A program made the position numbers and the translations under genes. 64,000 bases of DNA from positions 186,001 through 250,000 of the forward strand of contig NZ_REFV01000002.1 of assembly GCF_003688895.1 (NCBI RefSeq), in the 5' to 3' direction. The stretch comes from Dokdonia sinensis (GTDB lineage Bacteria; Bacteroidota; Bacteroidia; Flavobacteriales; Flavobacteriaceae). The notes beneath the pieces are model-generated. The model was not told where the DNA came from. It worked only from the letters and a program-made list of their open reading frames with translations, and did no database searches. The number at the start of each line of letters is the position of its first letter. Positions within the stretch are counted from its first letter, which is position 1. Below, piece by piece: positions 3,845-12,237 of the stretch.

Positions 3845-4648
3845 ATGAATAAAAACATTACCATCGCAGGTTTAGGCTGGCTAGGGAAGCCTCTCGCCAC
3901 ACATTTACAACTGTTAGGATATCGCGTTAAGGGAAGTGTCACAGATGCACAAAAAGCTAAGGATCAAACCAAAGGCGGTATCGCCACATTCCCACTAATC
4001 ATCGCAGAGAGTGGCGTGGGCGGAATGGTAGATACTTTCCTTGCAGATACTGATGTGTTAATTATTATGATTCCGCCGGGATTGCGCAAGAATACCGGGG
4101 CAAACTATGCTTTGAAAATGGCTCATTTTTTACACGTTATTGAGGAGAGCGGTATTAAGAAAGTAATTCTTGTGAGTAGTACTTCCGTATATTCAGATGA
4201 ACAAGGAGTAGTTACTGAAAAAGATGTGCCTCAGCCAGAAACTGATGCTGGCAAACAATTGTATGATGTTGAGCAGATTTTCTTTAACAGTCCAGCGTTT
4301 CAAACGACGATTGTCCGTTTTGGAGGATTATTTGGAGGCAGTCGGAACCCTATAAAGTTTCTTGCGGGCCGCAAAGGGTTGAGTAATGGAAACGCAAGTG
4401 TGAATATGATACATCGTGATGATTGTATCGGGATTCTGATTCGGATTATAAAGGAGGATGCTTTTGGGCATATATTTAATGCGGTGGCACCGCAACACCC
4501 TTCAAAGCGCGATTATTACACACGACAGGCAAAAGAGCTTGGGCTTGAACCACCACAATATTCAGACGAAGGAGACGAAGATTTTAAGGAGGTACATAGT
4601 GTTCATATTAAGGACGTTCTGGGCTACACATTTCAAGTAAGTCTTTAA
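3845..4648 (+). CDS. NAD(P)-dependent SDR family epimerase/dehydratase
   Basis: The 267-residue protein begins with a Rossmann dinucleotide-binding loop (IAGLGWLGKPLA, residues 6-17). It continues with the extended-SDR pattern: VILVSSTSVYSDEQG (about 105-120) contains the Ser and Tyr positions of the strand-5 region, and VRFGGLFGG lies further on. It resembles the YeeZ group of single-domain extended SDRs rather than a sugar-nucleotide epimerase of full length (about 310-340). The substrate is unknown. It precedes the Cache-channel gene by 18 bases on the same strand, so the two may be co-transcribed. Confidence 0.8.
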   Translation: MNKNITIAGLGWLGKPLATHLQLLGYRVKGSVTDAQKAKDQTKGGIATFPLIIAESGVGGMVDTFLADTDVLIIMIPPGLRKNTGANYALKMAHFLHVIEESGIKKVILVSSTSVYSDEQGVVTEKDVPQPETDAGKQLYDVEQIFFNSPAFQTTIVRFGGLFGGSRNPIKFLAGRKGLSNGNASVNMIHRDDCIGILIRIIKEDAFGHIFNAVAPQHPSKRDYYTRQAKELGLEPPQYSDEGDEDFKEVHSVHIKDVLGYTFQVSL

Positions 4649-4666: not shown

Positions 4667-6787
4667 ATGCAAACACGGCCTGTAGTTAAGAAAGTATTGT
4701 ACGGTATAACCGTAATTCTTTTTATGGCGTGTTGTTATGTCGTTTTTGACTTAGTGAGTTTCAATAAAAACCGACAAGCTACTGCGGTAACTTTAGGGGC
4801 AAAGACCACAAATGATTTAAGGGGAGACGTAAACGACTTGCTTACTGAGGTGATGCAGCAAGGAGAAGCACTTGCACAACAGCTAGAAAACGCATCGCCT
4901 TCTAATGAGGAACTTATTGCACTTATAAAAGAGCGTTCCCTAGCGTTAGACCAGATTCTTGGTGTTACGGTCGCATATCAACCTTATGGCTTTGATGAAA
5001 ACACCGCTCTTTATGCACCCTATTTTGATAAGAAGCAAAAAGAGATAATCCCGCTCCAGAATATCTATAACTATACAGATGGGCAATTAGAAACATCTTC
5101 CTGGTATACCAATGTTCTCAAAAATGGGAAAGGCTGGGTAGAACCCTATTATGGACAGGGAGCCCAAGCATTTATTTCTGATTACGGGATTCCGTTTTAT
5201 TACACTTCAGGACCCAAAAAGGGGCAAATACGAGGAGTAGTCTCAATGACGATTTCTTTAGATGGATTTACAGAATTAATACACGCACTAAGTTTAGGTA
5301 AAACAGGATATGGATTTGTGGCTTCGAGCAAAGGGACTATTCTTGCACATCCTGTAGGAAGTTACGTAGGAAAGAAAACAATACAAGAACTAAGCGCAGA
5401 AACTGAAATTCCAGCCCTACAAAAGGCTTATGTAGGATTAATGCAAGGCAAAACGGGAAACGTAGATTATATAGATGCGATAAAACAGCAAGAAACTATC
5501 TTCTTTTATGATCACGTTCTTGCTGCAGACTGGCGTATAGGGGTGCTTTTCTTTAAAAATGATTTGCTCGGGGGCGAAAACGAAGTGCGACAGAAATACA
5601 TCATTATTGCACTTGTAGTAAGTTTGCTTCTGTTCTTTTTAATGGCGGCATTTTTTAATCGTGATTATCTTTCGGAAAAGGAGATATGGCAGTTGGGATT
5701 TTTTGCTGGGTTTGTATTACTTGCAAATATTGTACTCATAGGCTACCTCCAGCACACAGCTGTACACACCGAAAAAGATTTATCCGAAAGTCCACCCATT
5801 GCAGATGTTACAACACTTAACAGCATCATAAACGAACAAGCACTACTCGCCGAAAAATCACAGCAATCCCCCCGAACAATTATTCCAACTGGTGTTTACG
5901 TGGATAGACTTTATTTTGAAGATTCCTATAATGTAAGCATCAGTGGTAAAGTATGGCAAAAGTATCCTACCGCAATTATAGATAGTGTGACGACTGGATT
6001 TGCATTTCCGCAAACGGCACCCTTTGCTGAGGCTCAGTTGATAGAAGAAATAGGTAGGCAGTTATATGATGACTATACCTTGATAACCTATTCTTTTAGG
6101 AATACGTTTAGGCTCAATTTTGAATATGGGGATTATCCTTTTGACAGACGGAATATCCATTTGTATTTTCAGCCACTATCTTTTAAGGATAGGTTGATGT
6201 TTGTACCTGATCTTGAAAGTTATACCTACACAAACCCTTCTCAAAAAAGTGGAGTGAGTAAGAAAATAAAACTTTCAGGGAGCAACATTCTTGAAACGTA
6301 TTTTAATTATAATTACTATGCGTATGATGCCAATTTTGGAGCACCTGTAAAAGGAAAAAGTGCAGAGGTTCCAGAGCTATACTTTAATATCAAACTCAAA
6401 CGAGTATTAATTACTGCATTTGTAACCTATCTCATCCCCATATTTGTAGTGCTTATTATGATGTATATGTTATTGTACACTATAAAGAAGAACAAGAAAA
6501 AAGAGGTGGATGGAAATATCGTCTCGGCGATGACGGCATTTTTCTTTGTGCTTATCTTCTCGCACATAGACCTACGTAAGAATATTGATACGGCTGAACT
6601 TATTTATATGGAGTACTTCTACTTTGTGACTTATGTTATGATTCTGATTTCTACCTACAATCTAATAGCCTATTCTAGAGGACCCCATAAAATTTTTAGT
6701 TACAAAAACAATCTCATTGTGAAGGCGACCTTTTGGCCTATATTTTTGGTGATGATCCTAATCATTACCTTATTAATGTTTTACTGA
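4667..6787 (+). CDS. dCache sensor fused to a pentameric ligand-gated ion channel-like protein
   Basis: In this 706-residue protein a membrane helix (10-30) leads into a periplasmic dCache-type domain (about 40-300, with GWVEPYYG, VVSMTISLDGF and GYGFVASSKGTILAHP). Two further helices (311-330, 342-361) follow. The C-terminal half reads as a Cys-less pentameric channel: a beta-sandwich (about 403-577) with GVYVDRLYFEDS and the loop YGDYPFDRRNIHLYF (487-501), then four helices M1 (579-603, internal Pro591), M2 (617-634), M3 (644-667) and M4 (682-705). Seven helices put both ligand-binding domains in the periplasm and the C-terminus outside, as a pLGIC needs. Cache domains bind small ligands such as amino acids or carboxylates. 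Gating by the Cache ligand is inferred. The 3' end overlaps the convergent lipoprotein gene by 7 bases. Confidence 0.8.
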   Translation: MQTRPVVKKVLYGITVILFMACCYVVFDLVSFNKNRQATAVTLGAKTTNDLRGDVNDLLTEVMQQGEALAQQLENASPSNEELIALIKERSLALDQILGVTVAYQPYGFDENTALYAPYFDKKQKEIIPLQNIYNYTDGQLETSSWYTNVLKNGKGWVEPYYGQGAQAFISDYGIPFYYTSGPKKGQIRGVVSMTISLDGFTELIHALSLGKTGYGFVASSKGTILAHPVGSYVGKKTIQELSAETEIPALQKAYVGLMQGKTGNVDYIDAIKQQETIFFYDHVLAADWRIGVLFFKNDLLGGENEVRQKYIIIALVVSLLLFFLMAAFFNRDYLSEKEIWQLGFFAGFVLLANIVLIGYLQHTAVHTEKDLSESPPIADVTTLNSIINEQALLAEKSQQSPRTIIPTGVYVDRLYFEDSYNVSISGKVWQKYPTAIIDSVTTGFAFPQTAPFAEAQLIEEIGRQLYDDYTLITYSFRNTFRLNFEYGDYPFDRRNIHLYFQPLSFKDRLMFVPDLESYTYTNPSQKSGVSKKIKLSGSNILETYFNYNYYAYDANFGAPVKGKSAEVPELYFNIKLKRVLITAFVTYLIPIFVVLIMMYMLLYTIKKNKKKEVDGNIVSAMTAFFFVLIFSHIDLRKNIDTAELIYMEYFYFVTYVMILISTYNLIAYSRGPHKIFSYKNNLIVKATFWPIFLVMILIITLLMFY

Positions 6788-10308: not shown

Positions 10309-12237
10309 ATGAAACATTTATTGCCTTATTTAGCTTTGTTTTCCTTTCTAATGATACGAGCTCAAAGCGTAAACTCTTTACAACACGATTGTCAAGTTTC
10401 TTATGATCAAGTCCATTCCTATCAAACAAGGTCACAGGCTTGTGCTAATCCAAATTTAGAATACTACCTCAAACGACCTCCTATCACTACAAGTTTTATA
10501 GTTACTGAAGATAGAATGGAAACCATACAGCTAGTTCTTAAAGATGAATATGATTTTACAGACATAGAAATCGTTTTTGGACAATTTTTTAATATTGCCG
10601 GTGTAGGATGGCAGTACACGACATATCAAATGTTTGATGATGGTACTCACGGAGATATTAGTGCTGGAGATAAAATATTTACAAGTGATGAAATTTTAAT
10701 TCAGCACGAAGAGACAAATACGTATACTCCAATCCTTTCAACTTTAGATGTAATATATAATGACAGTGGAAACCAAGTACACAATGATATATTTACTCCT
10801 GATTATACTTCAATAAACACCAGTTTTTTAAATACAATAGAAATTCCAAATATTCACAGATTTAATAATGATGATTATCTGTTTTCTGAAAATTTCATTT
10901 TTGTAAATAAGTATGAAAATTGGGGTGAGTTGTTATGTAACCAAATAGGAGGAGTTCTCGATCCATCATACGTGATATCCAAAAGCTTACTCTATGATTA
11001 CTGGGGTGAAGAGGTTATAAATAGTCAAATGGATAAAAATCTGTATATGCAAGTAGATTTTATTCAGCCTCACGGTCAGTTTCTCATTGGTCAAGATATA
11101 GCCCTTCACGTAAATTCTTTGTCGGGGGTTGAATCGCACGAGATTTTACACCTTTGGATCCCTAGAATAAATGGTTATTTAGGCTTTGGTGAGGAGACTC
11201 TTTATAATAATACAAATCATCATCCTAATATTTTCAAAAACACTTCTGGATTTCTATACTCATCTTGGTCACGGGTAAATGGTATTTATTGTGAGAATTC
11301 TATTAATAATTTACAAGAAGATGATCAAGGTACTTTTGTTTATTTAGACTATACGTCAAACTATGAATTGTGCAATGGTGAGATAGACCAAAGTAAAGAC
11401 AAACAAATCTTTAACGATTTTGAGCAGTATCTTATGGGGCTTATTACTATAGATGAGGTTGATCTTCCGCTAACATATTTAAACAATATTTATGCTGTTG
11501 AGGAAGTGATTGATCCTCAAACTAACTTTCTAGTAGGGGAAAGAAGGTATTATGAATCATTCATAGAAATTGATCGTGAGCAATTAGAGCAGGCAAAAAG
11601 TGATATGCTCGATGACGCTGGAGACGCGCCATTTCTAGATGCGGCAGAGCCAAATAATTTTTTCCTAACCTTTACGGGGAACAAGTCAACATTATCTGAT
11701 AATGAGATTAAGTTCTTATCTATTTTAAGTCAAGATTTGACAACCACAGAAGACAGATTACAGGAAACAAATGTAAATACGTACCATCAAAATACAGAAG
11801 GAAGATCTACTATCACAGCGAATATTCCAAACCCTACATTGTATACTGGAGATATTTTTACAGAAGAACACATTACAATTTTAGAAGGGGAGGAGTACAA
11901 CGGCTGGACGGTTAACGGTACTTATGAGCGAATCTTAGATTCAGAGCAATATAATGACAGCATCGTCACAACATATCTTACAGTCGAAGAAGCATTATCT
12001 ATAAATGATCTTAAACCGATAGGTGTTAAATTATACCCTAACCCAGCTAGTTCGACAATATTTATTGACACGGAGTCTCTTAAAAGTTATAAGCTATATA
12101 ATACGCTGGGTCAAGTTGTAATTGAGGGAGAGAAGAATCAGGTTAATGTGTCAAATTTAGAATCAGGAATGTATTTTATGCAAGTATTAGGATTGTCGCA
12201 AAGAGGTATGCAAACAATTAAAGTAATAATAAAATAA
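10309..12237 (+). CDS. Secreted HExxH zinc-protease-like protein with T9SS C-terminal sorting domain
   Basis: The 642-residue product starts with a signal peptide (1-19, cut after IRAQS). Mid-protein it carries H277-E-I-L-H281 (GVESHEILHLWIP), the signature of a gluzincin or metzincin zinc site; E295/E296 in GFGEETL could supply a third ligand. Two early Cys pairs may form disulfides. The last about 70 residues are a type A T9SS sorting domain (LYPNPASSTIFID, LYNTLGQVV, NVSNLESGMYFMQV), so the protein should be exported through the outer membrane. Overall similarity to a named peptidase family is not evident, so the activity is inferred from the motif. Confidence 0.75.
   Translation: MKHLLPYLALFSFLMIRAQSVNSLQHDCQVSYDQVHSYQTRSQACANPNLEYYLKRPPITTSFIVTEDRMETIQLVLKDEYDFTDIEIVFGQFFNIAGVGWQYTTYQMFDDGTHGDISAGDKIFTSDEILIQHEETNTYTPILSTLDVIYNDSGNQVHNDIFTPDYTSINTSFLNTIEIPNIHRFNNDDYLFSENFIFVNKYENWGELLCNQIGGVLDPSYVISKSLLYDYWGEEVINSQMDKNLYMQVDFIQPHGQFLIGQDIALHVNSLSGVESHEILHLWIPRINGYLGFGEETLYNNTNHHPNIFKNTSGFLYSSWSRVNGIYCENSINNLQEDDQGTFVYLDYTSNYELCNGEIDQSKDKQIFNDFEQYLMGLITIDEVDLPLTYLNNIYAVEEVIDPQTNFLVGERRYYESFIEIDREQLEQAKSDMLDDAGDAPFLDAAEPNNFFLTFTGNKSTLSDNEIKFLSILSQDLTTTEDRLQETNVNTYHQNTEGRSTITANIPNPTLYTGDIFTEEHITILEGEEYNGWTVNGTYERILDSEQYNDSIVTTYLTVEEALSINDLKPIGVKLYPNPASSTIFIDTESLKSYKLYNTLGQVVIEGEKNQVNVSNLESGMYFMQVLGLSQRGMQTIKVIIK

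Follow-up and report, generated by a model that had tools for sequence, protein, structure and literature searches.

The open reading frame described here raises the question of whether one bacterial chain can join a Cache-type chemical sensor to a pentameric ligand-gated ion channel (pLGIC) and, if so, how the two parts are assembled and what the sensor might do to the channel. The gene lies in a stretch of 64,000 nucleotides from Dokdonia sinensis (contig NZ_REFV01000002.1, positions 186,001 to 250,000), called the window throughout. A first-pass annotation, made from the sequence alone, had read it as a Cache sensor fused to a pLGIC, with seven helices and both binding domains in the periplasm. 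The reading considered probable here is that of a divergent prokaryotic pLGIC subunit with a complete membrane-anchored dCache sensor, in which the sensor and channel modules stand head to tail and a dCache ligand would shift channel opening. The interest of this flavobacterial product is that of a distant relative of the animal neurotransmitter-gated ion channels with an additional chemical-sensing domain.

Architecture and identity of the two halves

The order of the parts, derived from hydropathy and AlphaFold2 (AF2) secondary structure, is TM1, the dCache domain, two helices, a pLGIC-type ligand-binding domain (LBD) and M1-M4 (Table 1). Seven helices are predicted in this way (TM1-TM3 and M1-M4); M3 of the window protein falls below the hydropathy cut-off, yet it is helical in the AF2 model and exceeds the cut-off in remoter homologues. 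The full-length model, for which 15 homologues served as input (mean pLDDT 69, pTM 0.46), comprises a helix at residues 4-75, a dCache fold, helices at 305-330 and 337-365, a helix and beta-sandwich at 381-579 and four terminal helices. The proposed seven-helix topology is supported, and counting helices places the two binding domains in the periplasm, as had been claimed.

Table 1. Coordinates of the features discussed (window positions unless a locus is given)
Feature	Position	Strand	Remarks and basis
Cache-pLGIC fusion gene	4667..6787	+	706 aa, ATG start; ORF list and full-length homologues
TM1	4697..4762	+	Residues ~11-32; runs on into long N-terminal dCache helix; hydropathy, AF2 helix 4-75
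Periplasmic dCache sensor domain	4763..5578	+	Residues ~33-304; Pfam, PDB 3li8/3lib, Foldseek
S144-S145-W146-Y147	5096..5107	+	WY retained; carboxylate-Arg position (two before W) is Ser/Thr in 15/15
T195	5249..5251	+	Ligand-nitrogen Asp position of amino-acid and amine dCache motifs; Thr/Ser in 15/15
TM2	5579..5656	+	Residues 305-330; predicted exit helix of sensor module; AF2 and hydropathy
TM3	5675..5761	+	Residues 337-365; predicted anchor helix of channel module; aligns with N-terminal helix of Cache-less homologues
Linker	5762..5806	+	Residues 366-380, mostly low confidence; pLDDT < 50 at 362-380
pLGIC-type LBD	5807..6403	+	Residues 381-579; hhalign to canonical pLGICs, Foldseek
W430	5954..5956	+	Universally conserved pLGIC Trp; invariant in alignment A7, aligns with invariant Trp of canonical pLGICs
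Pro-loop YGDYPFDRRNIHLYF	6125..6169	+	Residues 487-501; PFD aligns with ELIC and pH-gated channels; invariant in A7
M1	6407..6490	+	Residues 581-608; conserved kink proline P591
M2	6515..6577	+	Residues 617-637; predicted pore helix; R637 close to outer end
M3	6593..6676	+	Residues 643-670; conserved acidic E649
M4	6713..6781	+	Residues 683-705; AF2 and hydropathy
Barrel-like gene	L007:2891-4150, L009:3843-4994, L016:3746-5005 and four more		Uncharacterised; directly upstream of Cache-pLGIC gene

The front half gave clear matches to the Pfam families dCache_1 (1.5e-16, residues 132-293) and MCP-like_PDC_1 (2.5e-9, residues 85-202), so that the Cache part of the earlier claim stood without difficulty. 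When the whole protein was compared with PDB sequences, the significant matches were dCache domains only, 3li8/3lib being the best, and a Foldseek search with the front part of the model also led to dCache domains (3lib, E 1.9e-14). The long N-terminal helix, the two PDC lobes and the flanking TM helices that characterize the class are recognizable from Pfam, AF2 and Foldseek, and on these sequence matches and this predicted fold the dCache identity of the N-terminal half is regarded as certain. Receptor dCache domains usually function as dimers, which implies a symmetry mismatch with a fivefold channel.

The channel half is less readily recognized. Single-sequence searches of Pfam, NCBIfam and the PDB gave no pLGIC match (no Neur_chan family in Pfam), and the NCBIfam model LGIC_1 reached at best 9.8e-5, in three of 21 homologues, with no match in the window protein. 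This reflects the reach of the curated models, since accepted pLGIC-type relatives such as L043 and L046 also lie below the PF02931 cut-off; moreover, the Pfam absence is uninformative for this half because PF02931 matches just two of 297 Bacteroidota genomes and none of 14 control genomes. A profile of 21 relatives run against the PDB was led by pLGICs, at marginal values (0.22 for a pH-gated chloride channel, 0.23 for ELIC), and in other Bacteroidota it matched proteins of short length (1e-6 to 1e-9). Seven of these, together with three found through PF02931, made up a canonical set of ten aligned sequences, which matches GLIC and ELIC at about 1e-30. Against this set the family profile aligned by hhalign with an E of 2.6e-16 (probability 98.7) over 242 columns covering the LBD and the helices; Trp, PFD loop and M1 proline fall in register, and identity to canonical pLGICs is about 13%. 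The top 50 Foldseek matches of a channel-half model (residues 368-706, pTM 0.63) were all pLGICs, namely GLIC, ELIC, DeCLIC or GABA-A receptors, over at least 300 columns. The expected pLGIC match was thus missing from single-sequence Pfam and NCBIfam searches and present in profile-profile and fold comparison. A reader might still hold that this half is no pLGIC and shares with them nothing beyond four helices and the short PFD motif, pointing to the missing Neur_chan family and the marginal single-profile PDB values; an alignment through both LBD and TMD, and top-50 fold matches exclusively to pLGICs, make that reading very improbable.

The class features found comprise a beta-sandwich LBD (helix 381-397, strands 404-579 by hydropathy and AF2 secondary structure) with Pro-loop and conserved Trp, as seen by profile-profile alignment, AF2, Foldseek and A7, followed by four predicted C-terminal helices with the M1 proline and the pore helix M2. 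Residues invariant across all family lineages in alignment A7 include W430, P491-F492-D493, P591, R637 and E649, and the motif that the first-pass annotation had quoted, YGDYPFDRRNIHLYF, is present as given. TM-scores to pLGIC chains were 0.42-0.57 over the query and model confidence was modest (pLDDT ~70; pTM 0.46 and 0.63), so the details of the pore are unreliable. The modelled M2 carries aromatics, including three consecutive Phe, where most pLGICs have Leu/Ile, with a register against the canonical M2 uncertain by about one residue. So unusual a pore helix would suit a non-conducting receptor in which the pLGIC fold passes a signal by conformation only, but M2, the M1 proline and features of the M2-M3 region are conserved as in channels and the protein has no cytoplasmic signalling domain to receive such a signal; this alternative is considered improbable.

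Distribution of the fusion and its Cache-less relatives

One scan of species genomes found 14 other full-length homologues (44-55% identity) in Flavobacteriaceae and Saprospiraceae. A copy with a broken frame, another truncated at the end of its contig and, in Roseobacteraceae, five relatives that lack the Cache part came out of the same scan. The Aquimarina agarilytica copy (L018:4956-7103) reads as two frames (438 and ~209 aa), perhaps through sequencing error or as a pseudogene. Since the 14 homologues share the entire architecture, the fusion is taken to be real, and its identical occurrence in many independent assemblies rules out a chance fusion or an assembly error. In 396 genomes of the phylum, a further search turned up 14 loci (L028-L041) in another family whose products are nearly full-length; the 13 that were aligned match from end to end (hhalign E 5.7e-54), and the Cache half of these proteins is highly divergent (best Pfam E ~1e-3). 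A third lineage is represented by a Vibrio record labelled plasmid (25% identity over residues 55-703, E 7e-47 pairwise; dCache_1 6.8e-9). As judged by sequence comparison, the fused architecture is therefore conserved in three lineages and is not a chance fusion. The distribution of the gene is rare and patchy: among 39 relatives the fused form occurs in the window's genome only and the Cache-less form in one congener, and across the class three of 395 genomes gave matches, of which two were weak ones to short pLGICs. No homologue was found in the phage records searched.

The Cache-less proteins come from Roseobacteraceae (L019-L023), Acaryochloris (L054) and the congener of the window species (L002). 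They belong to the same channel subfamily, those aligned being 28-31% identical to the window protein; they differ from it in lacking dCache and in starting straight at a helix equivalent to TM3, a single hydrophobic segment at residues ~6-26 that aligns onto TM3. Because these relatives begin with such a helix, the two spacer helices can be read as the exit helix of the sensor (TM2) and the anchor of the channel (TM3). These alignments are most simply explained by the union of two complete modules: a sensor of the chemoreceptor and sensor-kinase type, TM1-dCache-TM2, and a channel, TM3-LBD-M1-M4. The tree places fused and Cache-less forms in one family (100/99), separate from canonical pLGICs, with the Cache-less forms as a single clade (100/99). 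Parsimony requires two changes of the Cache label, whose direction, gain or loss, is not fixed by the tree because long branches meet at its base. The congener's form (L002:1492-2718) falls with those of Roseobacteraceae and Acaryochloris, which suggests gene transfer. The Acaryochloris marina channel (L054:2818-4278) is located on the conjugative plasmid pREC1 and has an additional C-terminal tail of ~110 residues. What the sensor contributes could readily be studied by comparison with these naturally Cache-less relatives.

Taken together, sequence and predicted fold establish that the two modules are present and in what order, that their fusion is conserved and that the channel half has a pLGIC fold, and the claim of a Cache sensor and a pLGIC in one frame is upheld, by Pfam for the former and by profile-profile and fold comparison for the latter.

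Ligand, gene neighbourhood and proposed mechanism

The pocket residues of amino-acid and amine dCache domains were taken from PMC10104139, mapped by dCache alignments and checked as columns across the 15 full-length proteins (the window protein and the 14 others). The amino-acid Arg aligns to S144 and the Asp shared by amino-acid and amine pockets to T195; W146, Y147 and D172 are invariant. The dCache_1AA motif (Arg two before WY, Asp at the PctA D173 position) is replaced by S/T and T/S in 15/15, and at the PctD D235 position, the one considered for the dCache_1AM motif, T/S likewise takes the place of Asp (T195). Since the Asp and Arg columns hold only Ser/Thr, a standard amino acid or a biogenic amine appears unlikely as the dCache ligand. 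The amino-acid or carboxylate signal of the first-pass annotation is therefore not supported; a carboxylate seems less likely, the Arg being absent, and another small polar molecule is possible.

As regards gene context, a gene at 3845-4648 of the window lies 18 bp upstream of the fusion gene; it is absent from all other loci, and for this reason no partner is claimed. Seven of the 14 other full-length Flavobacteriaceae/Saprospiraceae loci have directly upstream a gene for an apparent outer-membrane barrel, so assigned from sequence, for which Pfam, NCBIfam and the PDB gave no match; the window's genome was searched for a homologue and yielded none. In Vibrio sp. THAF191d (L053:1663-5914) the Cache-pLGIC gene is the last in a run of overlapping genes: it overlaps by four bases a gene for a membrane-like 207-aa product without Pfam match, which in turn overlaps, also by four bases, a gene whose product has a family-3 solute-binding domain and, after it, apparent membrane segments. 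This run suggests a transport-linked operon and echoes a remark by Tasneem et al. (2004) on operons with PBP-II proteins (PMC549065). The Roseobacteraceae Cache-less gene (L019:1439-4765, L020:6033-9650 and equivalents in L021-L023) follows, in 5/5 loci, a protein with SAM domain, class III cyclase, AAA and TPR, and in 4/5, as judged by clustering, it is next to a phytochelatin synthase, flavoprotein, ankyrin protein. Elsewhere in the window (10309-12237) lies the gene of a large secreted protein whose one recognised part is a Por_Secre_tail sorting domain (type IX secretion).

As for the mechanism, we infer that five subunits would form a homopentameric, conducting pore with M2 as its lining. 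The dCache domain would bind a small molecule in the periplasm, probably other than a standard amino acid or amine, and the domain's movement would be passed by TM1/TM2 and TM3, coupled as a hairpin, to the LBD, shifting channel opening; the channel would thereby integrate two periplasmic signals. Alternatively, the channel's own LBD alone might gate it, with dCache only concentrating or separately sensing a ligand in the periplasm, without driving the gating. Such an arrangement would agree with the complete channel module retained by the Cache-less sisters, presumably able to work alone, and with the predicted flexibility of the TM3-LBD linker. Retention of the full-length fusion across divergent lineages and the invariance of W341, Y360, L361 and H363, in the spacer and TM3, within the flavobacterial clade suggest, however, a coupled unit, and gating by the LBD alone is thought unlikely. 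That alternative is close to the 2004 proposal of Tasneem et al. Returning to the sensor-coupled channel, a broader proposal is advanced tentatively, at slightly less than even chances: that these proteins constitute a distinct prokaryotic pLGIC subfamily with a five-helix channel module, its LBD suspended from an anchor helix that is not cleaved off. Entire membrane sensor modules would have been added to it, and a chemoreceptor-type sensor would control the channel via a helical hairpin in the membrane, in place of the ECD stacking of DeCLIC.

Comparison with known systems

The first-pass annotation had thought the Cache version little described, which overstated its novelty, as Cache fusions to prokaryotic pLGICs have been in print since 2004. 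Tasneem et al. (2004) reported MCP-N and Cache domains fused ahead of prokaryotic pLGICs in Methanosarcina, Cytophaga and Microbulbifer, proposing homopentamers with several ligand-binding domains and a role in chemotaxis (PMC549065). Compared by description, the window protein has the same arrangement as these Cache-ART-LGICs, a Cache-type sensor N-terminal to an LBD and a four-helix channel in one chain; the extra helices between Cache and LBD, which the 2004 text does not mention, are a possible difference. The chemotaxis proposal fits the window's genome poorly: the MCP signalling domain (MCPsignal) was not found there, while the same search matched seven of 14 control genomes, so that, as far as the MCPsignal search goes, the protein is unlikely to act as a chemotaxis receptor by way of MCP pathways. 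Jaiteh et al. (2016) worked with terminal domains removed. A search of the open-access literature, reaching few subscription papers, found no experimental work on any Cache-pLGIC. The window protein thus adds to a known kind of fusion and its novelty is modest; a conserved Cache-pLGIC family missed by present profile libraries is, at the same time, a tractable system for studying how pLGICs may be tuned by an extra sensor, and it has a parallel in the Cache domain that the alpha2-delta subunit of calcium channels carries.

The dCache domain of a Methanosarcina mazei histidine kinase (3LIB), which the Cache half matches best in both sequence and fold, is of the amine-type class in PMC10104139; the window protein has Thr/Ser at the ligand Asp position and thus departs from the amine motif. 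With GLIC and ELIC it shares the LBD and TMD fold, the Pro-loop, the conserved Trp and the M1 proline, at ~13% identity, whereas those channels have neither an N-terminal sensor module nor an anchor helix before the LBD. DeCLIC from Desulfofustis, stated to be the sole pLGIC with an experimentally characterised N-terminal domain (PMC12664993), is likewise a prokaryotic pLGIC with a large additional N-terminal periplasmic domain, and its structures 9eva and 9ev1 are among the Foldseek matches of the channel half. The N-terminal domain of DeCLIC consists, however, of two jelly-roll lobes atop the ECD (PMC12664993), whereas the extra domain of the window protein is a dCache domain tied to the channel through two predicted membrane helices.
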